Assembly (NCBI RefSeq): GCF_017985075.1
Contig: NZ_JAGNYF010000013.1
Coordinates: 1 to 45,556, forward strand
Reading direction: 5' to 3'
DNA: 45,556 nucleotides
From: Flavobacterium sp.
Lineage (GTDB): Bacteria; Bacteroidota; Bacteroidia; Flavobacteriales; Flavobacteriaceae
Both the position numbers and the translations under genes were made by a program. The notes below the pieces were generated by a model. The model ran no database searches and was not told the DNA's origin. It worked only from the letters and a program-made list of their open reading frames with translations. How positions within the stretch are numbered: the stretch's first letter is position 1; each line of letters opens with the position of its first letter. Below, piece by piece: positions 16,470 through 35,441 of this stretch.

Positions 16470-16487
16470 ATACGTATTTATACGTAT
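16470..16487. promoter_or_regulatory. ATACGTAT double palindrome, site 2 (perfect)
   Basis: ATACGTAT-TT-ATACGTAT, ending one base before the stop codon of the DnaC-like gene (16488-16490). It lies in the 140-base gap upstream of the PIN-like gene. Confidence 0.6.
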
Positions 16488-20810: not shown

Positions 20811-20828
20811 ATACGTATAAATACGTAT
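20811..20828. promoter_or_regulatory. ATACGTAT double palindrome, site 4 (perfect)
   Basis: ATACGTAT-AA-ATACGTAT, ending 21 bases before the -7 box TACATTTG (20850-20857) of the plus-strand gene. The position, abutting the -33 region, is what an activator or repressor site would occupy. Confidence 0.62.
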
Positions 20829-20885: not shown

Positions 20886-21197
20886 ATGAGTTTAAATCCA
20901 AACACAGGGAGTATTATTACTAAAGAAGAAGCCCAAACATTAATAGCTGCCTTTGGCAAAAAATTTCCAGGAGAAGTAGTTGCTTCTTTTATTGGAGAAA
21001 ACAATGTAAAACAAATATTAGAACAAGACAATTGTATAGGCTTGCGTATTTATAATGGCTATAATGATGCTGAACAAAAAATAAGCTTGGTTATGGTAGG
21101 TGTGGATGCGGAAGAGCAAGATATGTTGGATGGAAATATTATTTATGATAAAATGGTTACATGCCCACCTATTTGTGCTCATAATGGTTTGGTTTAA
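20886..21197 (+). CDS. Small 103-residue protein ahead of a two-component system
   Basis: M-S-L-N-P-N-T-G-S-I-I-T-K-E-E-A-Q-T-L-I and a mixed alpha/beta middle (V-A-S-F-I-G-E-N-N-V-K-Q-I-L, I-G-L-R-I-Y-N-G-Y) end in V-T-C-P-P-I-C-A-H-N-G-L-V. Small flavobacterial proteins ending in a C-P-P-x-C motif are often found near histidine kinases, which I recall without a named family. There is no signal peptide. It is separated from the next gene by a perfect palindrome at 21,210. A role as a ligand or partner of the kinase downstream is only suggested by position. Confidence 0.6.
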   Translation: MSLNPNTGSIITKEEAQTLIAAFGKKFPGEVVASFIGENNVKQILEQDNCIGLRIYNGYNDAEQKISLVMVGVDAEEQDMLDGNIIYDKMVTCPPICAHNGLV

Positions 21198-21204
21198 TTA
21201 AAAA

Positions 21205-21232
21205 GTAAGCCTATCGTATACGATAGGTTTAC
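21205..21232. promoter_or_regulatory. Perfect 18-bp palindrome with extended arms (attenuator or operator)
   Basis: CCTATCGTATACGATAGG (21210-21227) is an exact palindrome, and GTAA/TTAC lengthens it to 28 bases with one G-T pair. A T-rich run (ATATTTTTATTT) follows on the plus strand. It stands 12 bases after one stop codon and 15 bases before the next ATG, so it could end most transcripts of the small gene and lower expression of the membrane and kinase genes. Confidence 0.6.
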
Positions 21233-21247
21233 ATATTTTTATTTCTA

Positions 21248-21883
21248 ATGTTTTTACTATATTTTATTATTATTTTTGGCGCTTGCCCTTTACTTTACTT
21301 TTTAATTGCTAAAAGAAAAGATTATAGAGAATTGAAGCCAATACTACCTTTTGTTGTACTTACATTTATAGCTAGTTTTTATGAATTTTTTGGATCATTA
21401 TTTTTAAAATTAAATGTTTCTTATTGGTTCGTTATTTATGATATTCTATCATTTTTCTGTATTTATTATTTTTACTTACAAGTTTTACACAAGCATTTTT
21501 CGAAATTATTCCAACTATTTTTAGTTGCATTCTTTATACTATGTATTACAATGTATCCATATTTTAAAGTTGATGAATTTTTAATTATTACTTCTTACAT
21601 CGACACATTTATTACATTATTTATTCTCTTTTTTACAATTATTTGGTTTAGAAAGCTAATACTAGAAGCATATATAGAAAACCTGTTGCAGAATAGTACT
21701 TTTTATTTTATTTCGGGGTTTATATTGTATTATTGTGGTACACTGTTTTTATTTTTACTAAGTAATTACATTTATAAAGTTGAATCAAGCATGTTTCAAT
21801 CCTATTGGGTGATTAATATATTATTAAATTTGGTTTTACGAACTCTTTTACTTGTGGGGCTATGGAAGGCGAGAACGAATTAA
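21248..21883 (+). CDS. Multipass membrane protein of the signalling cluster
   Basis: 211 residues with six or seven hydrophobic helices covering almost the whole length (M-F-L-L-Y-F-I-I-I-F-G to L-R-T-L-L-L-V-G-L-W-K-A-R). The pattern, short loops with aromatic residues, resembles the membrane sensor domains that precede flavobacterial histidine kinases. Its last 22 bases overlap the start of the kinase gene in another frame, so the two are translationally coupled, as if a sensor and its kinase were split into two proteins. Ligand unknown. Confidence 0.75.
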   Translation: MFLLYFIIIFGACPLLYFLIAKRKDYRELKPILPFVVLTFIASFYEFFGSLFLKLNVSYWFVIYDILSFFCIYYFYLQVLHKHFSKLFQLFLVAFFILCITMYPYFKVDEFLIITSYIDTFITLFILFFTIIWFRKLILEAYIENLLQNSTFYFISGFILYYCGTLFLFLLSNYIYKVESSMFQSYWVINILLNLVLRTLLLVGLWKARTN

Positions 21884-22632
21884 AATCTATAATTTTTATT
21901 GGTACCTTTTTAATGTTATTTTTAGCATTTGGTTTGTTGTTTATGGTGTTGTTTTATCAACGTCATTTGGCAAAAATTAAAAAGAAAGAAGCTGAATTAT
22001 TATTAAAAACCGCATTAAAAAGTGAGAAAAAAGAACGTAAACGTATCGCTAAAGATTTGCATGATGCTATTCAGAGTGATTTGAATGCGATTCGTAATTA
22101 TGTTATTTTATTTTCTAAAAAGAATAGTCATACGGATGCGCCTGAGCTTTTAGAAGCCATTCATACCTCTTTGGAACAAACTATTGAAAATACCCGATTG
22201 ATTTCTTATCAATTGATGCCTCCATTATTAGAAACAGCTGGATTTAATTTGGCATTACGTGATTATTTTGAACAATTGAGTGCTTCGAGTGGTAAGCGTT
22301 TTGAATTGGATATGAACTTGGCCGAAACTTTAGTTTCTGATAAAATTAGTTATGAAATGTTTCGTGTGGTTCAGGAATTGACTTCTAATATGCTTAAATA
22401 TGGTTCTATGACCATTTGTACCGCTCGATTGAATACAACTTCTAAAGGTGTTTGTTTTGAACTGATTGATGATGGTATTCCTTTTGATTTTAAAATGGCC
22501 TATAAACAAACCAAAGGAACCGGACTTCAAAATATTCAATCGCGATTAAAAAGTATTTCTGCGACCTTAGAGCAAGAAACCATTGCTAAAGGCAATCATT
22601 ATAAAATTTATTTATTTCCTATTTATGATTAA
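21862..22632 (+). CDS. Sensor histidine kinase, NarL/HisKA_3 type
   Basis: 256 residues. One N-terminal membrane helix (I-I-F-I-G-T-F-L-M-L-F-L-A-F-G-L-L-F-M-V-L), then a coiled coil and the HisKA_3 H-box K-E-R-K-R-I-A-K-D-L-H-D-A-I-Q-S-D-L with His 67 as phosphate acceptor. The ATPase domain shows the N-box V-Q-E-L-T-S-N-M-L-K-Y-G, the G1 box D-D-G-I-P-F-D and the G2 box G-T-G-L-Q-N-I-Q-S-R-L. All key residues are present. It overlaps the response-regulator gene by 8 bases, so the pair is made together; the sensory part is probably the membrane protein encoded just upstream. Confidence 0.88.
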   Translation: MEGENELKSIIFIGTFLMLFLAFGLLFMVLFYQRHLAKIKKKEAELLLKTALKSEKKERKRIAKDLHDAIQSDLNAIRNYVILFSKKNSHTDAPELLEAIHTSLEQTIENTRLISYQLMPPLLETAGFNLALRDYFEQLSASSGKRFELDMNLAETLVSDKISYEMFRVVQELTSNMLKYGSMTICTARLNTTSKGVCFELIDDGIPFDFKMAYKQTKGTGLQNIQSRLKSISATLEQETIAKGNHYKIYLFPIYD

Positions 22633-23284
22633 AGTTGCTTTAGTTGACGACCATCAGCTATTTAGAAAAAGTTTGTCGTTATTATTATCTTCATGTGAAG
22701 GTATTTCTGTTGTGTATGATACTTCTGATGGTATGGCTTTTTTAAAGTATTTAGAAGAAGCCGAACTGGACGTATTACTATTGGATTTAGAAATGCCCAT
22801 AGTTCATGGATCCGATGTTTGTAAGCAAGCAAAGTTTATTGATCCTGATCTTAAAGTAATTATTCTATCGCAATTGACTTCTAAAGAAGCTGTGCATCAA
22901 GTTATGGAAATAGGTGCAAATGGTTATTTTACAAAAAATTCGTCTCCAGATATTTTAGAAGATGCTATTAGAAATGTTTTTGATAAAGATTATTATTTTG
23001 ATATCGCTTTGAGTACTGTTATACGTGAAGCTTTGTTGTGGAAGAGAAAACGAAATACCTTTTCCGATACGCCTAGCGTTCATTTAACGCCTAGAGAAAT
23101 ACAAATTATACAATTGGCCACTAAGGAGAAATGTAGTAAGGAAATTGCTGATTCACTTAATATTAGTACACGAACAGTAGAAAAGCATCGTAAACATATT
23201 ATGGAGAAAACAGATTCTAAAAACTTTATTGGGGTTATTTTGTATGCTTTGAAGTCTAATTTGATTCTTTTAGAGGACGTGTAA
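22625..23284 (+). CDS. NarL/LuxR-type response regulator
   Basis: 219 residues from the ATG at 22,625, because M-I-K-V-A-L-V-D-D-H is the normal receiver start; an upstream start would translate the kinase end. The receiver has D-D-H at 8-10, phospho-acceptor Asp 54 in L-L-L-D-L-E-M-P, then I-L-S-Q-L-T and G-A-N-G-Y-F-T-K with the invariant Lys. The C-terminal LuxR helix-turn-helix reads L-T-P-R-E-I-Q-I-I-Q-L-A-T-K-E-K-C-S-K-E-I-A-D-S-L-N-I-S-T-R-T-V-E-K-H. It is a transcription factor partnered with the kinase. Its targets are not visible; the divergent promoter region with ATACGTAT sites is one candidate. Confidence 0.9.
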   Translation: MIKVALVDDHQLFRKSLSLLLSSCEGISVVYDTSDGMAFLKYLEEAELDVLLLDLEMPIVHGSDVCKQAKFIDPDLKVIILSQLTSKEAVHQVMEIGANGYFTKNSSPDILEDAIRNVFDKDYYFDIALSTVIREALLWKRKRNTFSDTPSVHLTPREIQIIQLATKEKCSKEIADSLNISTRTVEKHRKHIMEKTDSKNFIGVILYALKSNLILLEDV

Positions 23285-24297: not shown

Positions 24298-24855
24298 TTA
24301 GTAATGCATATCAAATCTACCTTCACGCACTTTTACAATTTCTCCATTAGAATTTATAGCATCATACCAAAATGTACCACTCAATATTGCATTATTATAA
24401 TTATGGTAAGTTATTTTAAATTCGCCAGTAATAATTGAGTTTGAAGAATAGTAACCTGGGTCGGGCGAAGCAACTGCATTAATAACATACTCTCCAGATT
24501 TTGAATTAGCACCATATTCTATTAAAGGAAAAGTTACACCAACATTATCATGAAGATTTTGATTAAATGAGCTAATCAAAATTGTTCTAATATTTTCATT
24601 TCCTCCTTGAATTATACTTTCTCTTATTCCAAGTGTAAAATCTTTACCATCTATATAATAACAAACTAGATTACCTGTGGTAAAATAGCCCTTTGGCAAA
24701 AAAGCAACACCATTAACCAAACAACCTGCTGTGTTAGCCCCTGTTTGTGTAGCTGGTGGTAGTTTTTCGAGTTCTGTTTTAGGTTGTTCGTCATCGCCTT
24801 TATTACAGCAACTTATTACGAAAGTTGTTAACAGTAGTAAAATTAAATTTTTCAT
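24298..24855 (-). CDS. Lipoprotein of the TQTGANT family, unit 1 (without a hydrolase)
   Basis: 185 residues. The lipobox is F-V-I-S-C-C with a short signal (M-K-N-L-I-L-L-L-L-T-T-F-V-I-S). After a charged linker comes L-P-P-A-T-Q-T-G-A-N-T-A-G-C-L-V-N-G-V-A-F-L-P, the diagnostic opening of a Bacteroidota lipoprotein family (I recall DUF6252, not certain), and beta-rich sequence ending in G-R-F-D-M-H-Y. The paralogues at 28,465 and 33,062 are each followed by a secreted hydrolase; here the hydrolase is missing and REP DNA follows. The lipoprotein probably sits on the outer membrane facing outward or inward; role unknown. Confidence 0.78.
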   Translation of the reverse strand: MKNLILLLLTTFVISCCNKGDDEQPKTELEKLPPATQTGANTAGCLVNGVAFLPKGYFTTGNLVCYYIDGKDFTLGIRESIIQGGNENIRTILISSFNQNLHDNVGVTFPLIEYGANSKSGEYVINAVASPDPGYYSSNSIITGEFKITYHNYNNAILSGTFWYDAINSNGEIVKVREGRFDMHY

Positions 24856-24879
24856 AGTGAATTATTTTAATATGTTTAT

Positions 24880-24887
24880 CAAATATA
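24880..24887 (-). promoter_or_regulatory. -7 box of lipoprotein unit 1
   Basis: TATATTTG on the minus strand, 25 bases upstream of the start codon. Identical boxes are at 29,122-29,129 and 33,680-33,687. Confidence 0.55.
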
Positions 24888-25002
24888 ATTAAATATTGTC
24901 ATGAAATTGTTCATAAAAGTTTACTACTAAATTGTTTTTAAAATATAAAATACTATTTAGTGTAATATTTTTTTAAAATTATATATTACAAAACATACAT
25001 AT

Positions 25003-25020
25003 ATACGTGTTTATACGTAT
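25003..25020. promoter_or_regulatory. ATACGTAT double palindrome, site 5
   Basis: ATACGTGT-TT-ATACGTAT: one base away from the perfect dyad. It lies between the integrase-tail fossil and the lipoprotein promoter. Confidence 0.55.
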
Positions 25021-25045
25021 TTATTCATTCAAAAAAACACACACC

Positions 25046-25111
25046 TTACGAAGTTTTAGAAAGCATAGTATTCTGTGAGAATTTATTTTTGAGTATTTTT
25101 ATGCCTTCGCT
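25046..25111 (-). pseudogene. Fossil of an integrase 3' end, copy 1
   Basis: Reads S-E-G-I-K-I-L-K-N-K-F-S-Q-N-T-M-L-S-K-T-S-stop; the intact integrase ends S-E-D-M-K-M-L-K-D-K-F-S-H-N-N-M-L-S-K-T-S-stop. Upstream of the Ser codon the frame hits stops, so only about 21 codons survive. The DNA between it and the lipoprotein is also shared with the region downstream of the intact integrase. Confidence 0.75.
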
Positions 25112-25136
25112 TCATTATGTCATTGGCCAGTGCTTT

Positions 25137-25180
25137 AAATAAAAAAAACTGTTTTTGAAAGTTCCAAAAACTGTTTTTAT
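25137..25180 (-). terminator. Terminator of hydrolase gene 1
   Basis: On the minus strand AAACAGTTTTTG, an 8-base loop and CAAAAACAGTTT pair except for one central mismatch, and TTTTTATTTAAA follows. It begins about 8 bases after the hydrolase stop codon. Confidence 0.65.
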
Positions 25181-25187
25181 AATTTGT

Positions 25188-28100
25188 TTATTCTACAGCT
25201 ATTTGATGACTTTCTATTTGGCTATCTATGTAAATTTTTAAAACATAAATTCCTTTATTAAGCCCTTTAACTGAAAAATTTGACTTGTTGTTATATATTT
25301 CAACTTTTGATTTTGATTGTCCCATCATATCAAAAAGTTCGCCTGAAACTGTTGCACTTTTTACGGGTATATTGTTTGCATCTCTAATTTCAATATTTAC
25401 TATATCATTTGATGGATTAGGATAAATTTTAAATATGTTATTGTTTGCAATTCTTCCAAAGTCACAATCATATTGTAAAGTTGTGCTGCCGCAAGCGTTT
25501 GTTGCTGTTGCATTAACACAAAAAACATTTGTTCCTCTAACACAATATGGCCCACCCCAGTTAGATATAAATTCATTATTGGAAGTAGTGTAAATAACAT
25601 TTGTAACTCCTTGTTGAGCTAATGTTAAATTTGACACATCACTTATAGCACAAAGGGTAGATTTTACTGGTTGTGGTTCAAAATATGTGTACTCAAATGT
25701 GAATGATGGTTTTCCTACCCAAATGGTTTTTGTTAGTGTTTGTTCGTTTTGAAAGGTTGCTTTTACAAAACCCGGACCATCTACTACTTTAGAAACGGTA
25801 ATTGAATATGCCGATTGACTTACAATTTGAAGGTTGGAAGATACAGACCATGTTACTGTACTTGGGATCTTACATATATCCGGAAAAGAATAAGTTGTGG
25901 TACTACATACTAAATCAGGACCTGACATTGCATTTTCTTGAATTGGAAAATTGGGTGCTTGATGAGAAGGCGGATTTGTATTATCTCCTAGTTCTTTTAA
26001 TAGCCAATTTACACTTCTAAAATTAAGCGCGATATGTGCTGTATTATTCGATTCTCCAAAATAACTATCAAAATAGGTTTCATTACAAGTTACTAAATTA
26101 CGATTTAATGGATTTGCCCAATTTTGGTTTGGATTTTTCATCCCAATACTTGAATAGGTTGGTATAAAACATTGGTCTGCAATTAATGCATGCGTTTCCC
26201 ATTGCGCCCCATTACCAAATTGATTTGCATACCAATAAGCTAAATTATCTGATGTATATTGCCAAAAACTGCCTCTTACTCCAGTTACACCTGTGCCAGT
26301 TATGGTACTATGAATTACACCAGTTGCATCAATTAAACCGCCAGGAATTAGATCTAAATTACCTCGAAAATTCAGATTTATTACAGGTGTAGATTGAGTA
26401 CGACCTATCCCTTTAGTTAAAGATGCGCTTTCTGCTATGATTCCAGTTGAGGGCATTAAACGAGCTTGTGCTGTTGCTAGTTTTGTGGTATAGCAAACCG
26501 ATGGTTTCCAACCGAATAAACTAAATGGTTTGAAGCAGGCTTGGGTAATCAGTCGGGTATCTAGCACTAAATCGTTGTTATTTCCTAATGGCCTAACTCC
26601 TGATAAAGAACCATTTACAATAGCAATTTTTCGCAAATTCATAGGAAAACCTTTTGAATTAGGCAATCCGTTGGTAAACTGGTTGTTGAAATGTGTTTGA
26701 AAATAGGGGTTTCCCTCATTTGTAGGCATTCCTTGTGCTATTGTTGAAGCGTTTAGATAGGAATTATTAATACTTCCTTCATTTGCTGTTTGCTGATGTA
26801 ATTCTATCATCAGTTCCTTCGATGCTGTAGAATTAAGCTTGTTTTTGTATGTATCATCAGCTTCTGCATTTGCACCACCATCTCTTAGTAAATTAACTAA
26901 TGCTTGGTCTCCAAATGGGACATTTGCTCCATGGTTTGGGCTATCAAAAGCAACCCATAGGCGAGTGTTGTGTTTCCATTTGTTTTGCTCAATAACAGTA
27001 GTAGCTTCCGCTTCTTTCTTTTCCATATAAGCAAGTGCATAACGAGAAATTTGACCGCCCATACTAGGTCCTACTACAACCATTTTTTCGGTACTTCCGT
27101 TTTGTTGTAGTTTGCTATTTAGGTTTTTAAGTAAAGTAACTAGAGCTAGACCATTACGTTCTATAAAGTCGGCACCACCATCCACTTTTATTCCTTGGGG
27201 AGTGTTGTAGGTAGGCTGGTTTACCACTACTATATCATAGCCTTTGGAACGGAGAACTCTTATTAAATTATCATTTATTCCAAAAGAATCTTTATATCCC
27301 ATTAATTCCTGTATCGATTGATGAATTTGTGGATCATAAAGCTCTGCACTATTTCGGTTGGCATATTGGCAGTCACCTGTTGGGTCATTTTCGCAATCGC
27401 AATCGGTTATTTTTCGCTTATCGCCTGGATCGAAACCATCTATAATTATTATGGGTTTGCGTAATGTCTTCTGATGATTCGGATCATAAAAAATTCTAAC
27501 TTCTAGCTTGCCTTTCAGAGCAATTGCATCACCAATACCTTGAAAGGCTTCATTGGCTTCTATAAGATTTGCTACAGGGTATAAAACTTCACTGTCTATG
27601 TCACCATCGCAAGGAGTAGAAGTAGTTGCCATAGACATAGTTGTAGTATTGATATTTTTGCTTACAAAAATTTTGCCATAAGTAGTGATACTCACATTAT
27701 TACTAAGTGTAACTGTAAAGGTAATTTTTTGATTAGCGTTTGATACCGTGTTATTTATACTTACACTGTTGGTTATTAGAGCGTTGTTGCTAATTATGGT
27801 GCGGTTTATACCATCGCCAAAATTGGCTATCAATGTTTTTATGGTGTAATTACCATTATTTATAATCAAATTATTGTTAAATTTATAGGTAATGGTATTA
27901 CCACTAATCACATTTTTTAGTGGGGCTATTACTAATGCCTGCAAATCATAAAAAGGAACTTTGTTTATAATGGGTCTAAAATAAGTGCCATCAAACGTTA
28001 ATCCTCCGTTTGTGGGGTTTGCTGAATCGTAATTCATGACCTGAAGCGAGGAGTTTATAATACCAATATTTACTTCGTTTCCATTGGTGGCGTTTATATT

Positions 28101-28382
28101 GCGATTTTCCAATCCTTGCAAAGAGATGAGTCTTGTGTTGTTACTTGACTTATACAGTTCGGCAAGCGCTTGTTTGAAAAAAACAAAATTGGCAGTATTG
28201 TGCAAATTATCAGGTTGGTTATAGGCAAACAAGTTGGTAGTTCGTAAAGACCTTTCGTATATAATGCCACTGGTAACAGAACTTTGATTTATATAAACCA
28301 ATTGTGCGTCTAAAGGATTTGTGGTTTGTGCTAAGGTGTTTAAAAAAAACACCAAAAAGAGGGTAATGAAAATTTTTTTCAT
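25188..28382 (-). CDS. Secreted alpha/beta-hydrolase (lipase/esterase-like) with T9SS tail, paralogue 1
   Basis: 1,064 residues. Signal peptide M-K-K-I-F-I-T-L-F-L-V-F-F-L-N-T-L-A-Q. Residues 20-300 are a beta-rich region unlike known domains. The hydrolase core follows: K-P-I-I-I-I-D-G-F-D-P near 310, V-D-G-G-A-D-F-I-E-R-N-G, the nucleophile elbow V-V-G-P-S-M-G-G with Ser ~440, and F-D-S-P-N-H-G-A-N-V-P near 480. The last ~80 residues (I-Y-P-N-P-S-N-D-I-V-N-I-E-I to Q-I-A-V-E) are a Por secretion tail, so the enzyme is exported by T9SS. The preceding Ig-like region (about 810-980) is almost identical to paralogue 2. Substrate unknown. It is downstream of lipoprotein unit 2. Confidence 0.82.
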   Translation of the reverse strand: MKKIFITLFLVFFLNTLAQTTNPLDAQLVYINQSSVTSGIIYERSLRTTNLFAYNQPDNLHNTANFVFFKQALAELYKSSNNTRLISLQGLENRNINATNGNEVNIGIINSSLQVMNYDSANPTNGGLTFDGTYFRPIINKVPFYDLQALVIAPLKNVISGNTITYKFNNNLIINNGNYTIKTLIANFGDGINRTIISNNALITNSVSINNTVSNANQKITFTVTLSNNVSITTYGKIFVSKNINTTTMSMATTSTPCDGDIDSEVLYPVANLIEANEAFQGIGDAIALKGKLEVRIFYDPNHQKTLRKPIIIIDGFDPGDKRKITDCDCENDPTGDCQYANRNSAELYDPQIHQSIQELMGYKDSFGINDNLIRVLRSKGYDIVVVNQPTYNTPQGIKVDGGADFIERNGLALVTLLKNLNSKLQQNGSTEKMVVVGPSMGGQISRYALAYMEKKEAEATTVIEQNKWKHNTRLWVAFDSPNHGANVPFGDQALVNLLRDGGANAEADDTYKNKLNSTASKELMIELHQQTANEGSINNSYLNASTIAQGMPTNEGNPYFQTHFNNQFTNGLPNSKGFPMNLRKIAIVNGSLSGVRPLGNNNDLVLDTRLITQACFKPFSLFGWKPSVCYTTKLATAQARLMPSTGIIAESASLTKGIGRTQSTPVINLNFRGNLDLIPGGLIDATGVIHSTITGTGVTGVRGSFWQYTSDNLAYWYANQFGNGAQWETHALIADQCFIPTYSSIGMKNPNQNWANPLNRNLVTCNETYFDSYFGESNNTAHIALNFRSVNWLLKELGDNTNPPSHQAPNFPIQENAMSGPDLVCSTTTYSFPDICKIPSTVTWSVSSNLQIVSQSAYSITVSKVVDGPGFVKATFQNEQTLTKTIWVGKPSFTFEYTYFEPQPVKSTLCAISDVSNLTLAQQGVTNVIYTTSNNEFISNWGGPYCVRGTNVFCVNATATNACGSTTLQYDCDFGRIANNNIFKIYPNPSNDIVNIEIRDANNIPVKSATVSGELFDMMGQSKSKVEIYNNKSNFSVKGLNKGIYVLKIYIDSQIESHQIAVE

Positions 28383-28431
28383 AAATTTGTTTTGAGTTTT
28401 TGGATTAGTAATTATTTTGTTAATCTAAATT

Positions 28432-28466
28432 TTGGGTTGCTATGTCCAGTAGCAACCCTTTTTTTT
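28432..28466 (+). terminator. Stem-loop between lipoprotein 2 and hydrolase 1, T-run on the plus strand
   Basis: GGGTTGCTA, loop TGTCCAG, TAGCAACCC, then TTTTTTTT. In the direction of the two minus-strand genes the hairpin has no T-run, so it is not a normal terminator between them and may be a processing or attenuation element, or a stop for antisense RNA. Confidence 0.6.
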
Positions 28467-29097
28467 AAGGAAAAGGAGTTATATCTAATGTGCTCCATTT
28501 GAAATCAAATCTTCCGTTTAATATTTCTATTTCTTCTGTTCCATTGTAAAGTCTTAATTTTCCGCTAAAATTTCCTGAAACAATTCTGTTGGGTAAATCA
28601 AATCGAGTTATAGTCACTTTACCTGAGTTTTCAAAAGAACCATAATACTTCCAAGTGCTGGAAGCAGGAACAAATATTCTAGCATATACATAATTTTGCA
28701 TTAAACCATCGATACTGTTCTGAAAATTTGAAGGATGCCAAATGTATTCTCCTTCTTGGTTTTGAAATAAATCTTGTAAATGAATTATCATTAAAGCACA
28801 AGGCTTACCGTCTTGGGCATTTTTTATTTCTATTTCATTCCAAGTGTAATCTGGTCCATCTCCTGAAAATATCAAGCCTTTAGTTCCTGGCACATAAAGT
28901 GATCCTGTACCATCACGAGGGTAAAAAATTTGATTATTTATAATACAACCAAAAGTATTTGCACCTGTTTGGGTTTCTGGAGGTAGTTTTGCAAATGGGT
29001 CTTCATGGGTTTGGGAGTCGTCTTTTGAGCAAGAGAAGCCCCCTAACCCCCAGAGGGGGAATGTGATGATGAATAAAAAAAGTGTTGATTTTTTCAT
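28465..29097 (-). CDS. Lipoprotein of the TQTGANT family, unit 2
   Basis: 210 residues. The signal peptide is odd: M-K-K-S-T-L-F-L-F-I-I-T-F-P-L-W-G-L-G-G-F-S-C with the lipobox Cys at 23; the stretch P-L-W-G-L-G-G-F is the translation of a dispersed C/G-run palindrome (29,038-29,061). Then come L-P-P-E-T-Q-T-G-A-N-T-F-G-C-I-I-N-N-Q-I-F-Y-P-R-D and a beta-rich domain ending G-R-F-D-F-K-W. It is followed by hydrolase 1 after 82 bases, so lipoprotein and hydrolase are likely one transcription unit. Function unknown; pairing with the hydrolase is repeated in the next unit. Confidence 0.78.
   Translation of the reverse strand: MKKSTLFLFIITFPLWGLGGFSCSKDDSQTHEDPFAKLPPETQTGANTFGCIINNQIFYPRDGTGSLYVPGTKGLIFSGDGPDYTWNEIEIKNAQDGKPCALMIIHLQDLFQNQEGEYIWHPSNFQNSIDGLMQNYVYARIFVPASSTWKYYGSFENSGKVTITRFDLPNRIVSGNFSGKLRLYNGTEEIEILNGRFDFKWSTLDITPFP
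29038..29061. repeat. C/G-run palindrome inside a lipoprotein signal peptide
   Basis: GCCCCCTAACCCCCAGAGGG then GGAA. Such CCCCCTAACCCCC(N)GGGGG units are widespread between Bacteroidota genes. Here one is read in frame as part of the signal peptide of the gene at 28,465. Confidence 0.65.
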
Positions 29098-29121
29098 AGT
29101 GTATTGTTTTTAAATGTTTAT

Positions 29122-29129
29122 CAAATATA
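29122..29129 (-). promoter_or_regulatory. -7 box of lipoprotein unit 2
   Basis: TATATTTG on the minus strand, same position relative to the gene as in the other two units. Confidence 0.55.
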
Positions 29130-29244
29130 ATTAAATATTGTCATGAAATTGTTCATAAAAGTTTGCTACTAAATTGTTTTTAAAATATAAAATACTATTT
29201 AGTGTAATATTTTTTTAAAATTATATATTACAAAACATACATAT

Positions 29245-29262
29245 ATACGTGTTTATACGTAT
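29245..29262. promoter_or_regulatory. ATACGTAT double palindrome, site 6
   Basis: ATACGTGT-TT-ATACGTAT, copy of site 5. Confidence 0.55.
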
Positions 29263-29287
29263 TTATTCATTCAAAAAAACACACACC

Positions 29288-29353
29288 TTACGAAGTTTTA
29301 GAAAGCATAGTATTCTGTGAGAATTTATTTTTGAGTATTTTTATGCCTTCGCT
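29288..29353 (-). pseudogene. Fossil of an integrase 3' end, copy 2
   Basis: Identical in sequence and setting to 25,046-25,111: S-E-G-I-K-I-L-K ... M-L-S-K-T-S-stop, between lipoprotein unit 2 and hydrolase 2. Confidence 0.75.
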
Positions 29354-29378
29354 TCATTATGTCATTGGCCAGTGCTTT

Positions 29379-29422
29379 AAATAAAAAAAACTGTTTTTGA
29401 AAGTTCCAAAAACTGTTTTTAT
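29379..29422 (-). terminator. Terminator of hydrolase gene 2
   Basis: Same stem with one central mismatch and T-run as at 25,137-25,180, 8 bases after the stop codon of hydrolase 2. Confidence 0.65.
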
Positions 29423-29429
29423 AATTTGT

Positions 29430-32400
29430 TTATTCTACAGCTATTTGATGACTTTCTATTTGGCTATCTATGTAAATTTTTAAAACATAAATTCCTTTAT
29501 TAAGCCCTTTAACTGAAAAATTTGACTTGTTGTTATATATTTCAACTTTTGATTTTGATTGTCCCATCATATCAAAAAGTTCGCCTGAAACTGTTGCACT
29601 TTTTACGGGTATATTGTTTGCATCTCTAATTTCAATATTTACTATATCATTTGATGGATTAGGATAAATTTTAAATATGTTATTGTTTGCAATTCTTCCA
29701 AAGTCACAATCATATTGTAAAGTTGTGCTACCGCAAGCGTTTGTTGCTGTTGCATTAACACAAAAAACATTTGTTCCTCTAACACAATATGGTCCACCCC
29801 AGTTAGATATAAATTCATTATTGGAAGTAGTGTATACAACATTTGTAACTCCTTGTTGAGCTAATGTTAAATTTGTCACATCACTTATAGCACAAAGGGT
29901 AGATTTTACTGGTTGTGGTTCAAAATATGTGTACTCAAATGTAAATGATGGTTTACCTACCCAAATGGTTTTGGTCAGTGTTTGTTCATTTTGAAAGGTT
30001 GCTTTTACAAAACCCGGACCATCTACTACTTTAGAAACGGTAATTGAATATGCCGATTGACTTACAATTTGAAGATTGGAAGATATAGACCATGTTACTG
30101 TACTTGGGATCTTACATATATCCGGAAAAGAATAAGTTGTGGTACTACATACTAAATCAGGACCTGACATTGCATTTTCTTGAATTGGAAAATTTGGAAC
30201 TTGAGGAATTTCATCTAATTCTTTAAAAAGCCAATCTATACTTTCTTTAGTAAAAGAAGTATGCTCTGTATTGTTTGCTGTACCATAGTAACTATCAAAT
30301 GGTGTTTGCTTGTTTGTAGGACATGTTAAATTAGTATTTAAAGGATTACCCCAATTTTGATTTGGATTTAAATGACCAATTGCTGAAAACGTTGGGATAA
30401 AAGAATGATTTTCAATGTAATCTCTAGTTTCCTGTCTAACACCTGCTTCACTTAACCCATCAGAAACTGCTTCTCTAATATATTTGACAGTTTTAAAAAA
30501 CCCTCCAGGTACAACGTCTAAACTTCCTTTGATACTATTGTTATTTACATTTAAAGTATATCTTGGGTGAGAAAAATCTACATACCAATGATTGAACCCA
30601 ATATTAATAGTACTGTTTTGCCCATCACCTTTAAAAACAGTACCTGACTGAAATGATGCTGGCATAAAATTATCTTGTAATCTTAAAAATGTAATAGTCC
30701 AGTTAGAAAATAGCATTGTTGCCAAACCTGCTAATGGAGATAGTATAAAACCTGCTGCATTTGCTTTAGCATAACCTCTCATATATAAAAATGTTTGTTG
30801 CTCTGAAGCATCTTTTTTACCAGTAAATGAACCGTTTACCATCGAAATTTTTCTGAAATTTGCGTTTGAAACAGGATAACCATTTGACCCTGAAACACCG
30901 TTTGTATTTAGATTATTGTAATAAGTTGTAAAAAAACTGTTGCCATTTAAGTAGCCTGTTTCCCTAGCATTTTGAAACTGACTAATAATTTGTTGTTTTC
31001 CAGCAACTGAATTTAACTCTTCATAATACTGAATTTTTGCTGGTTCTTTTCCTAATCGGTCAGCTAAAAACCAAATGTTTGCTTGTGCACCTACAGGAAT
31101 ATTTGCCCCTAAATGTGGACTATCTACACTTACCCATAAACGCGCATTATGTTGCCATTTTGGTTTTTCTAAAGGGTCAGTTTCTTCGGCAAATCTTTTC
31201 TCCATATATGCAAGGGCATATCGAGTAATTTGACCACCCATACTAGGCCCAATTAATACTAATTGTTGTGTACTACCCACAGTATTTTGGTCTTCTTTAA
31301 TTTTTTGAATATAAGACGCTAAAGTTCTACCATTACGCTCTATATAATCTGCACCTCCATCAATAGTAACCGATTGTCCTGCTAAATTTGTAGTAGTGTA
31401 AGTTGGATTGTTAATTACAATAACGTCGTAACCTTTTTTTCTTAGTTCAATGATTAAATTTGTTTTTTTTGGTAAGCCTGTAACAGGATCAATAGTTCCA
31501 TCATTGTAATACATCAAATCTTCTAACGATTCGTGATTTTCAGGATTGAAAACACCATTGTCATCATCATCATTATTTATTACACAGGTTGGGTCTTGTT
31601 CGCAATCACAATCTAGTACTTTTCTTTTGTCTTTTGGGTCAAAGCCATCAACTATAATAATTGGCTTTAGCATATGTTTAGCATTGTTATTATTACCATA
31701 AAAAATAGTGTATTCCGTTCTGCCAAATACAGGTGAAGTTTCTGTATAACCTTGAAATGATATAGTTGAAGTAAACATACCTTTGTCTTTTAATGGTTCG
31801 TAACATGGTGAATTTGTATTATTTGTAGTAAATGTTTGTACATTTGAGCTGTATTTTATGTAAATTTTTCCATACGTTATCAGAGTGGTATTGTCAGAAT
31901 AGGTTATCGTAAATTTTAGTGTTTTCATACCTGTTGATGAATAATTTACGGTTTTTGATGGTATAACAATTGTGCTGTTGGAAATGACTGTAGATGGAGT
32001 AGTTCCGTCTGTAAAATCAACAATCAATGTTTTTATAGTTGTTGTAGCATTATTTAAAATTAAATTGTTTTTGAAATTAAATACAAAACTACTTCCTGTT
32101 ACAAATTCTTTTAATGGAGCTATTATACTAATTTTTTTACTTATGAATGAAGGTTGACCCGCAATTACAACAAATTTACCTGTACTTTGATTAAAAGTTA
32201 CACCGCCAACACTAGGATTTTCTTCGTTAAAAAGTAGTTTTTGAAATGAGGTGTTAATAATTCCAATATCAACCGAATTATTTGCTGTTGTTGATGCTGT
32301 TCTATTTTTCAGTTCTGTTATTGAAATAAACCTTGCTTGGTCGGATGCACGATACAATTCACTTAATGCTTGATTAAATTGTTCCTTGTTTGACCAATTG

Positions 32401-32606
32401 TTTTCAATAGAATTATAGTTTATGATGTTTGCAAAAGAGGTTACTTTGTCAATCAGCACACCGGAGGTAATTTGAGATGTATTCAAGTTAGAAAGCATAA
32501 CAGGCCAGTTGGGTGTTACTTCTGTTTGTTGAATCGTAGGATTGTCTTGTGCAACTACTTGGGAGAGTTGAAAACAAAAAATGAATGAAATTAAGATTTT
32601 TTTCAT
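29430..32606 (-). CDS. Secreted alpha/beta-hydrolase (lipase/esterase-like) with T9SS tail, paralogue 2
   Basis: 1,058 residues, signal peptide M-K-K-I-L-I-S-F-I-F-C-F-Q-L-S-Q-V-V-A-Q. It has the same architecture as paralogue 1: beta-rich N-terminal region, K-P-I-I-I-V-D-G-F-D-P, V-D-G-G-A-D-Y-I-E-R-N-G-R, elbow L-I-G-P-S-M-G-G, V-D-S-P-H-L-G-A-N-I-P, and the secretion tail. The first ~800 residues are only moderately similar to paralogue 1 while the last ~255 are almost identical, a sign of gene conversion or of exchange of catalytic halves onto a constant tail. It follows two lipoprotein genes and is probably co-transcribed with them. Substrate unknown. Confidence 0.82.
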   Translation of the reverse strand: MKKILISFIFCFQLSQVVAQDNPTIQQTEVTPNWPVMLSNLNTSQITSGVLIDKVTSFANIINYNSIENNWSNKEQFNQALSELYRASDQARFISITELKNRTASTTANNSVDIGIINTSFQKLLFNEENPSVGGVTFNQSTGKFVVIAGQPSFISKKISIIAPLKEFVTGSSFVFNFKNNLILNNATTTIKTLIVDFTDGTTPSTVISNSTIVIPSKTVNYSSTGMKTLKFTITYSDNTTLITYGKIYIKYSSNVQTFTTNNTNSPCYEPLKDKGMFTSTISFQGYTETSPVFGRTEYTIFYGNNNNAKHMLKPIIIVDGFDPKDKRKVLDCDCEQDPTCVINNDDDDNGVFNPENHESLEDLMYYNDGTIDPVTGLPKKTNLIIELRKKGYDVIVINNPTYTTTNLAGQSVTIDGGADYIERNGRTLASYIQKIKEDQNTVGSTQQLVLIGPSMGGQITRYALAYMEKRFAEETDPLEKPKWQHNARLWVSVDSPHLGANIPVGAQANIWFLADRLGKEPAKIQYYEELNSVAGKQQIISQFQNARETGYLNGNSFFTTYYNNLNTNGVSGSNGYPVSNANFRKISMVNGSFTGKKDASEQQTFLYMRGYAKANAAGFILSPLAGLATMLFSNWTITFLRLQDNFMPASFQSGTVFKGDGQNSTINIGFNHWYVDFSHPRYTLNVNNNSIKGSLDVVPGGFFKTVKYIREAVSDGLSEAGVRQETRDYIENHSFIPTFSAIGHLNPNQNWGNPLNTNLTCPTNKQTPFDSYYGTANNTEHTSFTKESIDWLFKELDEIPQVPNFPIQENAMSGPDLVCSTTTYSFPDICKIPSTVTWSISSNLQIVSQSAYSITVSKVVDGPGFVKATFQNEQTLTKTIWVGKPSFTFEYTYFEPQPVKSTLCAISDVTNLTLAQQGVTNVVYTTSNNEFISNWGGPYCVRGTNVFCVNATATNACGSTTLQYDCDFGRIANNNIFKIYPNPSNDIVNIEIRDANNIPVKSATVSGELFDMMGQSKSKVEIYNNKSNFSVKGLNKGIYVLKIYIDSQIESHQIAVE

Positions 32607-32661
32607 AATTTTGAAGTTAGATTAGAATTAATGTTAGAACAGTTATTTTTAATTTATTAGT

Positions 32662-32690
32662 AAGAGGCAATTGGCGTTGCCTCTTTATTA
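32662..32690. terminator. Stem-loop between hydrolase 2 and the small lipoprotein gene
   Basis: AAGAGGCAA (32662-32670), loop TTGGCGT minus one base, TTGCCTCTT (32678-32686), then TATTATTTATT on the plus strand; on the minus strand ACTAATAAATT follows. Like those at 24,218 and 28,432 it follows the lipoprotein gene(s) of a unit. Confidence 0.55.
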
Positions 32691-32691
32691 T

Positions 32692-33048
32692 TTATTGATA
32701 GTTGTATTTCCAGTTACCATATGAATTTAATAAAGATAGAATTGTTACAATAATTAAAGGAGGCATCACAGCAACTGCAGTTTTTTCTAAACTGAATTTA
32801 TTAATTTTCATAATATCAGTTTTGGTGACTTTTAATTCTTTATTTTGGTAAATACCAATTATACTTTCATTTGTTTCGTTAATAAACTTAAAGTGCCTAA
32901 TAGTGCCTATACTTTTAGTTTTAATAATATATAGGTTGTTTTCTTTTAGAACATAATAATCTTGCTTGTTACTTGCATTAATTTTTGTTGTAACACAAGA
33001 ACTTAATAAAAGTAAAAATAGCATACAAAAGATTGTTGTTGTTTTCAT
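32692..33048 (-). CDS. Small lipoprotein, unrecognised
   Basis: 118 residues. The signal M-K-T-T-T-I-F-C-M-L-F-L-L-L-L-S-S-C gives a lipobox Cys at 18. The mature part has a short beta-rich domain (Y-Y-V-L-K-E-N-N-L-Y-I-I-K-T-K) and a hydrophobic helix near the C-terminus (A-V-A-V-M-P-P-L-I-I-V-T-I-L-S-L-L). It starts 13 bases after lipoprotein unit 3 ends and lies before hydrolase 2, so this unit has an extra gene that the other units lack. Function unknown. Confidence 0.7.
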   Translation of the reverse strand: MKTTTIFCMLFLLLLSSCVTTKINASNKQDYYVLKENNLYIIKTKSIGTIRHFKFINETNESIIGIYQNKELKVTKTDIMKINKFSLEKTAVAVMPPLIIVTILSLLNSYGNWKYNYQ

Positions 33049-33061
33049 AATTTATAAGGTT

Positions 33062-33655
33062 TTATGGAAAAGGATGATTAGGTAAGGTAAAACCATTAAT
33101 ATCAAATCTACCATCTGTAATTTGAATAAAATTATTAGGATTGTCATAGCGGAAAAATTTTCCGAAAAATTTTCCAGATAAAATTCCACTGTCTAATCTT
33201 GTAATATTTAAAAAACATTCATTTTCAACAGAACCATAATACGCATAATTACTAATATTGCTATCCCATATTTTAAAATAAATATGACTATTTCTAATAC
33301 TATCTATGTTATCTTGAAAATTGCTTTGTTTTAGTGTAATCTGTCCTGTTGATATCAATGGCTCCATATGAATAACCATATTAAAACCAACAGAACTTGC
33401 ACCATCTTTAATTTCTAATTCATACCAAGAATTATCTGATGTACCCCATAAAACCATTCCTTTGCCACTTCCCAGTACCCCTCCTCCTGTTGGATCTCTA
33501 GGTATATATACTTTGCCATTAATAGTAACGCCAAAAGTGTTTGCTCCTATTTGAGTTTCAGGCGGTAAGGTAAACGTTGGGTTTTTAGTTACGTTATTGT
33601 CTTTGCTGCAACTTTGCAGTATTATTAACGTAATAGTTAAAATTAAATTTCTCAT
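33062..33655 (-). CDS. Lipoprotein of the TQTGANT family, unit 3
   Basis: 197 residues. Lipobox L-I-I-L-Q-S-C with Cys 16, linker, then L-P-P-E-T-Q-I-G-A-N-T-F-G-V-T-I-N-G-K-V-Y-I-P-R-D-P-T-G and a beta-rich domain ending G-R-F-D-I-N-G-F. It lacks the Cys of the G-C-x-x-N element found in units 1 and 2. It is clearly closer to unit 2 (shared Y-Y-G-S-x-E-N and W-x-E-L/I-E-I-K) than to unit 1. It is the first gene after the intact integrase tail and starts the unit that ends with hydrolase 2. Confidence 0.78.
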   Translation of the reverse strand: MRNLILTITLIILQSCSKDNNVTKNPTFTLPPETQIGANTFGVTINGKVYIPRDPTGGGVLGSGKGMVLWGTSDNSWYELEIKDGASSVGFNMVIHMEPLISTGQITLKQSNFQDNIDSIRNSHIYFKIWDSNISNYAYYGSVENECFLNITRLDSGILSGKFFGKFFRYDNPNNFIQITDGRFDINGFTLPNHPFP

Positions 33656-33679
33656 AGAGTGTTATTTTTAATTGTTTAT

Positions 33680-33687
33680 CAAATATA
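33680..33687 (-). promoter_or_regulatory. -7 box of lipoprotein unit 3
   Basis: TATATTTG on the minus strand within a 170-base stretch (33,673-33,843) that is about 90 percent identical to the matching stretches in units 1 and 2. Confidence 0.55.
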
Positions 33688-33804
33688 ATTAAATATTGTC
33701 ATGAAATTGTTTACATAAGTTTGCTACTAAATTGTTCTTAAAATTTAAAATACCATTTAGTGTAATATTTTTTTTTAAAATTATATATTACAAAGTATAC
33801 ATAT

Positions 33805-33822
33805 ATACGTGTTTATACGTAT
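33805..33822. promoter_or_regulatory. ATACGTAT double palindrome, site 7
   Basis: ATACGTGT-TT-ATACGTAT, 23 bases downstream of the intact integrase stop codon. Confidence 0.55.
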
Positions 33823-33844
33823 TTATTAATTCAAAAAACACCCT

Positions 33845-35083
33845 CTAAGAAGTTTTTGAAAGCATATTGTTATGCGAGAACTTGTCCTTGAGCATTTTCA
33901 TGTCCTCACTTACCTTTCTATCTAAAACCTTGGCGTAATGCTGTGTAGTGCGCAGGTTTTTGTGACCTAGCATTTTGCTAACGCTTTCTATAGGCACGCC
34001 GTTAGTTAGCGTTATCGTTGTTGCAAAGGTATGTCGGGCAATGTGAAAGGTTAATTCTTTTTCGATTTCACAAACTGATGCTATTTCTTTTAAATAAGCG
34101 TTCATTTTTTGGTTCGATAAAATAGGAAGTAGTTTATCCTCGTTATTACTTTGCGGATGGTTTTCGTATTTGTCGATTATCATTTGTGTAACTGGAAGGA
34201 TTGGAATTTTGGAAGCACTTTCCGTTTTTTGTCTGTGCGTGAATATCCATTTTTCACCGTCAATACCATAGCTTATATGCGACTTTGTTAGGTTTTTGAC
34301 ATCAATGTAGGCTAGACCTGTAAAGCAGCTAAAAAGGAAGATATCGCGTACAAGTGATAATCTTTCTGTTTTAAAGTCTTTTTCAATTATGGATTGGATT
34401 TCTTCTTCAGTTAAATACACGCGCTCCACTTCTTTGACTTTTGATTTGTAATTAGCAAATGGATTTTTATCTAGCCAGTCATTGGCCAAACAAAGTTTGA
34501 TGATTTTATTGAAATTTTTTAGGTATTTAACCGCTGTGTTGTTTGCGCAGTTTCTAACACTTCGAAGCCAGAATTCATAATCGGTAACAAAAGCATGATC
34601 AATCTTTGTAATATCGATATCCGAAACGTTGTATTTCCATTGCATGAACTCAATGGTATGTTTCAATGAGGTGGTATAGCGTTCTAAAGTGCCCGGAGCA
34701 TATTCTTTTCCAATAAGCTTTTTTATTTTGTTATTGTGGTCTTGGAATATGGGTACAAGCATTCTTGCTCTTTCATCAATACCTAAAAGTTTGCTCTTAA
34801 TTGTTTCAATAGTAACTGGTGCCTTTTTATGGATTAATTCCATTTCAGCATCTCGTATTTGATTTTTGAGTAAATCGAGATGATTATTTATTAAACGAGC
34901 TTCTTCTGAAGTGCCTTTCATTTTGTTACCTTCTGTAGACCATTTAGAAATTTCTACAAAGCGGTTTGTACTTTGTTCAAAACGTTTTCCATTGATTGTA
35001 ATTCTGGTATAGATAGGAACTAAACCATTTGCGGCTGCTTTTGCTCTCTTTGTGTAAAAGAGAATTGATACTTTTGTTTTCAT
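33845..35083 (-). CDS. int: Tyrosine recombinase (integrase), IntDOT-like
   Basis: 412 residues from the ATG at 35,083 (M-K-T-K-V-S-I-L-F-Y-T-K-R-A-K), where arm-binding domains of this group begin; an ATG at 35,137 adds 18 atypical residues. Order: arm-binding domain 1-90, SAM-like core-binding domain about 105-205, catalytic domain about 215-395. Catalytic residues seen are H-x-x-R-H at 347-351, G-H-K at 373-375 and nucleophile Tyr 383 in Q-H-Y-A-K. The canonical first Arg is replaced in C-F-T-G-L-A-Y-I-D, as in IntDOT relatives. The gene lies next to the 3' end of tRNA-Ser, the likely attachment site. Intact; two fossil tails of a relative lie at 25,046 and 29,288. Confidence 0.88.
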   Translation of the reverse strand: MKTKVSILFYTKRAKAAANGLVPIYTRITINGKRFEQSTNRFVEISKWSTEGNKMKGTSEEARLINNHLDLLKNQIRDAEMELIHKKAPVTIETIKSKLLGIDERARMLVPIFQDHNNKIKKLIGKEYAPGTLERYTTSLKHTIEFMQWKYNVSDIDITKIDHAFVTDYEFWLRSVRNCANNTAVKYLKNFNKIIKLCLANDWLDKNPFANYKSKVKEVERVYLTEEEIQSIIEKDFKTERLSLVRDIFLFSCFTGLAYIDVKNLTKSHISYGIDGEKWIFTHRQKTESASKIPILPVTQMIIDKYENHPQSNNEDKLLPILSNQKMNAYLKEIASVCEIEKELTFHIARHTFATTITLTNGVPIESVSKMLGHKNLRTTQHYAKVLDRKVSEDMKMLKDKFSHNNMLSKTS

Positions 35084-35353: not shown

Positions 35354-35441
35354 TGGCGGAGAAAGAGGGATTCGAACCCCCGGACCTGTTACAGTCAACA
35401 GTTTTCAAGACTGCCGCATTCGACCGCTCTGCCATTTCTCC
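35354..35441 (-). tRNA. tRNA-Ser(UGA)
   Basis: 88 nt including an encoded CCA. Acceptor stem GGAGAAA/TTTCTCC with discriminator G; anticodon arm GCAGT-CTTGAAA-ACTGT with anticodon TGA; a long variable arm; T-arm ending GGTTCGAATCC. The 3' end faces the integrase gene, the normal arrangement for an element integrated into a tRNA gene. Confidence 0.95.

Follow-up and report, generated by a model that had tools for sequence, protein, structure and literature searches.

A 45,556-nt stretch of DNA from a Flavobacterium-like host (the window) was found to contain three blocks of about 300 nt, two units that pair a lipoprotein with a hydrolase, and a further lipoprotein gene that stands without hydrolase. 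We consider it probable that this array is the regulated cargo slot of an integrative island, whose modules were gained by recombination between repeats. The original prediction of a tandem array proved real, and the intact integrase that it had placed at the outer end was located there with its domains present. The features of this region are as follows.

35354..35441, minus strand: tRNA-Ser(tga)
35356-35372: tRNA-Ser 3' end, proposed attachment core, sequence AATCCCTCTTTCTCCGC
33845..35080, minus strand: intact tyrosine integrase (Arm-DNA-bind_5, Phage_int_SAM_5, Phage_integrase)
33643-33942, 29085-29384, 24843-25142: three copies of the ~300-nt block (integrase tail, palindrome and lipoprotein promoter)
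33845..33910, minus strand: resident integrase tail, last 21 codons and stop, reading SEDMKMLKDKFSHNNMLSKTS and stop
33655-33062 and 32606-29430, minus strand: unit 1 (A), lipoprotein and hydrolase
33062..33655, minus strand: lipoprotein A, Riean_0653 family, 119.3 bits
32692..33048, minus strand: 118-aa ORF of unit A, a lipoprotein by eye, no Pfam match
32662..32685, plus strand (as the scan lists it): stem-loop before hydrolase A
29430..32606, minus strand: hydrolase A, 1058 aa, DUF676 and T9SS sorting domain
29090..30421, minus strand: constant block, unit A copy
29288..29353, minus strand: fossil integrase tail 1, reading SEGIKILKNKFSQNTMLSKTS and stop
29097-28465 and 28382-25188, minus strand: unit 2 (B), lipoprotein and hydrolase
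28465..29097, minus strand: lipoprotein B, Riean_0653 family, 131.9 bits
28434..28458, plus strand (as the scan lists it): stem-loop before hydrolase B
25188..28382, minus strand: hydrolase B, 1064 aa, T9SS sorting domain
24848..26187, minus strand: constant block, unit B copy
25046..25111, minus strand: fossil integrase tail 2, reading SEGIKILKNKFSQNTMLSKTS and stop, same as tail 1 over 66 nt
24855-24298, minus strand: unit 3 (C), lipoprotein without hydrolase
24298..24855, minus strand: lipoprotein C, Riean_0653 family, 154.3 bits
18918..19766, minus strand: RteC protein, island backbone

Some details of the predicted unit had to be revised. The stem-loop ahead of each hydrolase was located by the scan in both units, while the terminator claimed to follow each hydrolase was not returned, and a short AT-rich repeat lies there instead (25144-25185 and 29386-29427). 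Overall, the terminator scan gave 7 versus 4.5 in shuffles, and in the promoter scan shuffles scored as many, with no excess. The order of the elements, given as site and then integrase tail, is reversed: the tail precedes the palindrome. Unit A also carries the 118-aa ORF (33048-32692), which was missing from the earlier description; its counterpart in another genome, G179 (67% identity), likewise lies between lipoprotein and hydrolase.

The island presumably belongs to the integrative islands of Bacteroidota that target tRNA genes and carry RteC. It has in common with them a tyrosine integrase adjoining a tRNA 3' end, tRNA-end repeats, tandem copies in relatives and RteC, the gene from which transfer or mobilisation was judged; unlike in those islands, the slot behind the integrase opens with an operator-like palindrome tied to an island-borne histidine kinase/response regulator operon. 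The tRNA-Ser 3' end lies 276 bp before the integrase gene in the window, and in all five cases measured the integrase was found 255-276 bp inside this end. A survey of 10 chosen genomes for AATCCCTCTTTCTCCGC revealed four copies in G142, three each in G218 and G193 (in tandem in all three genomes), and two in the window's genome. Based on these sequences, we propose that the tRNA-Ser 3' end is the attachment core of the integrase family. The second copy in the window's genome is on contig C64, the two contigs not being joined, and a gene near it resembles a gene near the second copy in G104. With as many as 5 of 24 positions allowed to mismatch, the window showed no further copy of the tRNA 3' end, and the right end of the island is on another contig. 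The locus had been expected to vary, and indeed G104 shares the tRNA-Ser, the flanking gene and the island backbone yet carries other cargo, namely PDC-S06. The backbone is also common to G138, where it is found at tmRNA with DUF4297-HerA as cargo, and to G410, which has a CBASS cyclase and a phospholipase at the second slot. Defence genes occupy the corresponding slot in two relatives.

All three lipoproteins pass the cut-off of 57 bits of NF052634, the model of the family named after the gene Riean_0653; the model name states no function, and a PDB profile search with the lipoprotein gave no significant match. The tree distances among the three are 1.2-3.6 versus 0.06-0.51 to their nearest relatives, which are found in other genomes or elsewhere in the window's genome. 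Since the nearest relative of each lies outside the array, the array is heterogeneous and its units were gained piecemeal, as had been predicted. Both hydrolases carry the type A C-terminal sorting domain (TIGR04183, 36.5 bits vs 23) that marks T9SS cargo. DUF676 was recognized in hydrolase A with 23.9 bits (Pfam cut-off 20.3), and was unreported for hydrolase B at E 0.001. The serine nucleophile motif is present, with S455, M456 and G458 invariant and G453 and G457 nearly so among 12 aligned relatives. In the PDB profile search the hydrolase matched best to sorting domains and to a Lipase chain, the latter outside the catalytic part, and PDB lipases over the nucleophile region reached no better than E 0.16-0.29. 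Taken at the level of sequence, the module probably yields a lipase-like enzyme, secreted or at the surface, that has its own dedicated lipoprotein as partner. Alpha/beta-hydrolase toxins are treated in PMC3482391, the part considered here not naming this family; in the literature search the family name turned up in one paper.

Lipoprotein–hydrolase modules with tandem lipoproteins are spread across Bacteroidota. In the hydrolase search, all 20 loci of the long class, delimited by eye (478 vs 366 bits), were immediately preceded by a lipoprotein match, judged from coordinates, and a lipoprotein was present in 17 of the 19 such loci checked in the DNA examined; the next hydrolase below this class, from G073, had none in the DNA examined. 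Lipoprotein and catalytic-region distances were strongly correlated (Mantel r 0.89, 0/2000 permutations, 35 pairs). Such co-inheritance within a heterogeneous array would also suit a reading in which the hydrolase serves as an antibacterial effector against which the lipoprotein gives immunity, lipoproteins accumulating as effectors are displaced. We hold this to be possible but doubtful. It is about function and is compatible with assembly by recombination. Partner genes from different lineages, as found here, are what a displacement array would contain, and further points in its favour are the occurrence of at least two lipoproteins of at least 100 aa in 20 of the 36 loci with a hydrolase match, 25 loci with lipoproteins only (DNA being available for 3.5 kb or more downstream of each), 81-aa hydrolase stubs between lipoproteins in G269, split hydrolases in G022, G093 and G176, and the defence genes in the slot of relatives. 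Against it we counted that the T9SS is not known as an injector. Furthermore, a helper role fits better than immunity, because in Riemerella anatipestifer insertions in Riean_0653 lowered haemolysis and that gene alone restored it, as reported in the part of PMC7881567 considered here. The nearest parallel we considered is the effector-displacement immunity arrays of Vibrio cholerae type VI clusters, which, according to the part of PMC5361080 considered here, have in common with the window a large effector gene accompanied by heterogeneous arrays of small partners, mosaic genes, an effector 3' end that is shifted back, and assembly for which recombination and illegitimate insertion were proposed; the authors remarked on the likeness to integrons and on the lack of evidence for an integrase. 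Unlike them, the window has the lipoprotein partner encoded upstream, T9SS export, and an integrase end and putative operator as remnant, and immunity would here be hypothetical.

The repeated blocks bear on how the units were joined. With the middle block as a query against the window's genome, the other two copies were retrieved with E 1.1e-121 and 1.8e-83, and all remaining matches had E 9e-4 or worse; one on contig C31 was dismissed as a chance match. The claim that the tails are genuine integrase ends held: both fossil tails align with the resident end with 15 of 21 residues identical and no indel, scoring 54 versus 25 for the best of 2000 shuffles. The 15 nucleotide changes comprise 9 synonymous and 6 nonsynonymous ones, and because 9 of the 15 are synonymous, this suggests that the fossil tails derive from another integrase allele. 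The corresponding substitution test gave p 1e-4 with equal mutation rates, p 0.007 with GC-to-AT changes favoured 5x and transitions 3x, and p 0.08 if GC-to-AT transitions alone occur; mutation bias therefore weakens it, and an AT-decayed copy of the resident integrase stays compatible. Little weight was given to two fossil-tail residues differing at positions invariant in 41 other integrases, since the search anchor itself demanded M and D or E at those positions. Between the two fossil blocks, 259 of 264 nt are the same (98%), and their similarity stays high backwards through the hydrolase C-terminus; the constant blocks of units A and B match at 92% over 1350 aligned nt. Hydrolase A is a mosaic: in 50-residue blocks, residues 1-800 show 66-100% identity to G179 and 18-66% to hydrolase B, whereas residues 801-1058 show 94-100% to hydrolase B and 52-100% to G179. 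If a single ancestral unit had simply been duplicated in tandem, together with its promoter and the adjoining integrase end, and the copies had then diverged, this would account for units alike in order and promoter block and for the 98% identity of the fossil blocks, and AT-biased decay of a copied tail would be compatible with it. We find such a history improbable, given that each lipoprotein is nearest to one from outside the array, that residues 1-800 of hydrolase A are nearest to G179 and not to hydrolase B, and that in G179 unit A is present while the 1.3 kb upstream of it, up to the contig end, contain no palindrome, integrase tail or integrase.

The palindrome within the blocks recurs elsewhere in the window.

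33805..33822, minus strand: palindrome copy 0, proposed operator, ATACGTATAAACACGTAT
29245..29262, minus strand: proposed operator copy 1
25003..25020, minus strand: proposed operator copy 2
20886..23284, plus strand: regulatory operon (103-aa and 211-aa proteins, HisKA_3 histidine kinase, NarL/LuxR-type response regulator at 22625-23284)
20811..20828, plus strand: proposed operator before the regulatory operon
16470..16487, minus strand: proposed operator of the second cargo slot, between IstB-like and PIN_8 genes
13647..13664, plus strand: further palindrome copy, no gene start within 200 bp

Because it recurs beside the NarL-type response-regulator operon, the ATACGT palindrome looks like an operator. 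A regulator match of at least 45% identity was found in 13/21 site-bearing versus 1/21 site-less genomes (Fisher p 8e-5), both sets being chosen by us and the comparison run with the wide pattern WTACGYAWAAAYACGTAT; G104, G138, G219 and G242 carry palindrome variants only, and without these four the regulator is present in 11/17. Among the 8 of 21 site-bearing genomes without a regulator at 45%, G410 and G219 are incomplete and their contig stops at that point. In G009 about 46 kb separate the regulator from the palindrome. A gene start lies within 200 bp of 43 of 53 intergenic sites versus 51% of random intergenic positions (p 5e-6), the other 10 including the site at 13647, and the distance between the palindrome and the start of the first cargo gene is 102 bp in G104, 129 bp in G138 and 345 bp in G410. 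Coupling of the Riean_0653 family to the candidate operator was seen in the window only: neither the exact 18-mer ATACGTATAAAYACGTAT nor the tail part of the block was found in any of 101 other lipoprotein loci (some counted twice). A match to this integrase was present in 1 of 78 lipoprotein loci.

The original prediction had cassettes added serially at the integrase 3' end, with tails left behind. Read as integron-like capture, the integrase would recombine at the palindrome adjoining its 3' end and so insert the lipoprotein–hydrolase cassettes. An integron likewise has an array of gene units adjoining an integrase gene; here no more than 110 nt separate the palindrome from the integrase stop in the window, G138 and G219, the palindrome stands ahead of each unit, and the cargo between integrase and regulator operon varies by genome. 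This mechanism is nevertheless very unlikely, as tRNA 3' ends are repeated in tandem and accompanied by integrases, palindromes occur at regulator operons, none of the 39 other exact-18-mer loci matches this integrase, a palindrome is missing from the 110 nt around the stop in 40 of 43 integrase loci (and from 1000 nt around it in 39 of 43), the 18-mer is absent from the 101 other lipoprotein loci, the shared block reaches up to about 1.3 kb into the hydrolase, well beyond the palindrome, and the integron-integrase model TIGR02249 gave 53.9 bits, far below its cut-off of 265. The palindrome was thus ruled out as an attachment site, and the window appears to differ from an integron in its integrase, its tRNA attachment and the presence of the palindrome without this integrase, no attachment site for cassettes being apparent beside the integrase.

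We favour instead the following course of assembly by recombination between repeats. The island would have entered at the tRNA-Ser 3' end, with a variable slot reaching from the integrase 3' end to the histidine kinase/response regulator operon and opening with the palindromic operator, of which the response regulator is the probable, predicted binder. Modules in which a lipoprotein of the Riean_0653 family accompanies a hydrolase exported by T9SS would have come from different lineages and fallen under this operator. At least one of them was probably linked on arrival to the 3' end of a second allele of the integrase; the body of that allele would later have disappeared, perhaps as tandem islands collapsed. 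Later recombination between the constant parts (hydrolase C-terminus, tail, operator and promoter) may have copied the block, and lipoprotein and catalytic region would therefore now behave as a variable segment between constant ones. In this way, and with no need of an integron, heterologous modules may gather in an island slot behind a control block that was copied, the junction being marked by what is left of an integrase, and the tandem modules across Bacteroidota can be tied to testable functions. The proposed regulator and operator may also place defence genes and secreted cargo of mobile islands under joint control. More tentatively, the two-component operon might act as a master switch that the island brings along together with its operator, and the integrase 3' end plus operator might serve as a landing promoter; conceivably, the mobile arsenal under it would comprise phage-defence systems, RHS-like secreted proteins and lipoprotein–hydrolase modules. 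If so, cargo recombined behind the landing promoter would be switched at once, and the tail would travel in the landing block.

The pattern WTACGYAWAAAYACGTAT was dropped as too wide, since it matched in 70/399 genomes, many of them with TTACG variants that lie between nitrate-reductase-like and Crp/Fnr-like genes, as named from their sequences.

The array lies on the minus strand after two genes:

35441-35354, minus strand, tRNA-Ser(tga)
35080-33845, minus strand, intact integrase

The integrase is followed by lipoprotein A, a 118-aa ORF, hydrolase A, lipoprotein B, hydrolase B, and lipoprotein C, the small proteins being read as lipoproteins from their N-termini by eye. The array exists in the window as originally described, with blocks of about 300 nt, one upstream of each of the three lipoproteins; block 1 is the integrase end itself, and blocks 2 and 3 are fossil copies. 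The described unit layout was also observed, except for the order of its elements, which was found to be tail, palindrome, and promoter. Between the resident and first fossil blocks, the palindrome is the same at all 18 nt, the tail at 49 of 65 nt, and the stretch between palindrome and lipoprotein start at 136 of 150 nt; the fossil blocks share 259 of 264 nt with each other.

The array lipoproteins are members of the NCBIfam family Riean_0653, and a T9SS sorting domain is present in both hydrolases; hydrolase A passed the DUF676 cut-off, and hydrolase B was not reported for DUF676. Of 250 genomes in the genus, 37 carry the lipoprotein. Genome contigs were also scanned, and the 80 best matches correspond to 78 loci spread over Bacteroidota, two of them without an ORF match and many cut by contig ends. 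A hydrolase match (one at 19 bits only) was found in 36 of these 78 loci, always on the same strand and downstream of the lipoprotein, with a gap of -31 to 1312 bp (≤112 bp in 29 loci), while 41 contained at least two lipoprotein ORFs, fragments counted, and a single one held a match to the window integrase. In the separately fetched genome G108, an integrase at tRNA-Arg directly precedes two lipoproteins and a hydrolase. A hydrolase-based search yielded 20 loci in 19 genomes for the long class, whose lower limit was set by eye in the gap from 478 down to 366 bits; the coordinates place a lipoprotein match directly upstream in all 20 (one a fragment), and within the retrieved sequence this was seen in 17 of 19 long-class versus 0 of 11 other hydrolase loci. 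Distances of the lipoproteins and catalytic regions were correlated (r = 0.89, 35 pairs), as expected under co-inheritance. Riean_0653-family lipoproteins also occur in longer series: seven matches form a long tandem array in G022 (L180), four in G269 (L183) have hydrolase stubs among them, and four stand in tandem in Riemerella columbina (L212), with no hydrolase within the retrieved sequence.

The only experiment on this family that we found in the literature is a haemolysis study of Riean_0653 itself. That article (PMC7881567) reports that in R. anatipestifer haemolysis was lowered by Riean_0653 insertions and restored by the gene alone, and that the purified protein was not haemolytic. These results favor a role of the lipoprotein as a helper for a membrane-active enzyme. 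Tandem lipoproteins, orphan lipoproteins, and hydrolase stubs favor an immunity-like one. The helper role seems slightly more likely.

The fossil tail retains, in the integrase frame, 21 codons and the stop, and 15 of 21 residues are the same as in the resident tail, so the tails are real integrase ends, as had been claimed. Nine of the changes between them are synonymous and six nonsynonymous, whereas the expected synonymous share is 16% at equal mutation rates (p = 1e-4), 27% with GC-to-AT changes weighted 5-fold and transitions 3-fold (p = 0.007), and 39% if GC-to-AT transitions alone occur (p = 0.08). Given these tests, the fossil tail was probably still part of a functional integrase, of a different allele, while it diverged; under a strong AT bias, it may instead be a decayed copy. 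Tail position 6 is I in the fossil and in 36 of 41 other integrases, and M in the resident (one of the 43 integrase loci, without an anchor, was left out).

The original prediction that the integrase adds cassettes serially at its own 3' end, in an integron-like manner, was not borne out: a palindrome lay within 110 nt of the stop in 0 of 40 fetched loci of the nearest integrases (≤93% identity), a match to the window integrase was found in 0 of 39 exact-18-mer loci outside the window (some overlapping), and tRNA-Ser 3' ends are repeated together with integrases. Within 1000 nt, the palindrome was found in one of the 40 loci (G104); with the window, G138, and G219 added, three of 43 had it within 110 nt and four within 1000 nt. 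The window integrase and its 93% relative are 78-100% identical per 40-residue block to residue 400 and 43% identical over residues 390-411, while with G138 and G219 identity over residues 390-411 is 81%, yet 67-68% overall. Copies of the 17-nt tRNA-Ser 3' end number four in G142, three each in G218 and G193, and two in the window's genome, and an integrase lies 255-276 bp inside such a copy at five measured places. In G142, G218, and G193 the copies are consecutive, several with an integrase just inside. Repeated 3' ends with integrases read as the pattern of tRNA islands stacked in tandem at one tRNA. The G138 and G219 islands are sited at tmRNA.

G104 shares with the window the tRNA-Ser, the neighboring gene, the regulator operon, the RteC backbone, and the palindrome, its integrase being 85% identical; we take the shared gene beside the tRNA to be ribBA-like. 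Its slot holds PDC-S06 plus two smaller ORFs, and G138 has DUF4297-HerA and more ORFs between integrase and regulator operon. Since these relatives with the same backbone hold other genes there, we read the array as cargo in a slot that is filled with defence genes in two relatives. G410 also has the backbone, although its contig ends within the regulator operon; in its second slot CBASS genes stand behind a palindrome, at the position of the window's PIN_8 gene. Further left, the window also contains matches to AbiEi, AbiEii, and Tmn. Two proteins of the regulator operon, 103 and 211 aa long (20886-21883), matched nothing in Pfam or NCBIfam, yet in many compared loci they likewise stand upstream of kinase and regulator. 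At 23563-23985 and 24053-24218, an IS200-like Y1 transposase lies beside a CG-rich 32-nt repeat present in three copies, an arrangement that resembles a REP-associated transposase and its repeats; in L246, an ORF with a similar start follows a Riean_0653-family lipoprotein.

In a tree of 158 lipoproteins, lipoprotein A is closest to an orphan from its own genome (contig C77), with G179 next, while B is closest to Flavobacterium branchiophilum and C to Flavobacterium sp. FEMGT703F. The orphan (G000:C77, L179, 4465-5109) is 93% identical to lipoprotein A and has no hydrolase within the 10 kb examined. The G179 copy of unit A has no palindrome, tail, or integrase in the 1.3 kb of upstream sequence retrieved. 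Hydrolase A is a mosaic, G179-like to residue 800 and hydrolase-B-like after it, a switch that points to a variable part, bounded by the lipoprotein start and roughly hydrolase residue 800, and a constant part that continues through tail, operator, and promoter. Copies would arise by recombination between constant parts, with no need for integrase action, and the first joining of integrase end to hydrolase end would have been an illegitimate event, e.g., two tandem islands collapsing. We consider this full explanation, cargo in a tRNA-Ser island slot with modules gained by recombination between repeats, fairly probable, the mutation-bias control of the tail substitution test having lowered our confidence slightly. 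We read the array as accretive cargo in a tRNA island, resembling effector-displacement arrays in its build.

The palindrome, ATACGTATAAAYACGTAT, taken as a putative operator, occurs at six window places, of which three belong to the array, one precedes the regulator operon, and two lie beyond; at ≤3 mismatches, 14 matches were found over both strands versus 0.24 expected. Elsewhere in the genus, it adjoins regulator operons of the window's kind, and lies upstream of an RHS-like protein with DUF6443 (G411) and of proteins that begin much like a G060 protein with a T9SS tail. There are 55 distinct exact sites; 53 fall between genes, and for 43 of those 53 a gene starts no more than 200 bp away. 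Regulators with ≥45% identity were present in 13 of 21 site-bearing versus 1 of 21 site-less genomes, both sets being hand-picked; without four site-bearing genomes that hold palindrome variants only, the count is 11 of 17. The regulator lay 6-3747 bp from the nearest palindrome in the 14 of these 21 genomes in which the distance was measured (three of these regulators below 45% identity), and about 46 kb away in G009. Many genomes of the genus (L109, L113, L115, L117, L122, and others) carry another sequence, TTACGTATAAATACGTAT, perhaps an Fnr-type operator, between two genes named by eye as molybdopterin-oxidoreductase-like and Crp/Fnr-like.
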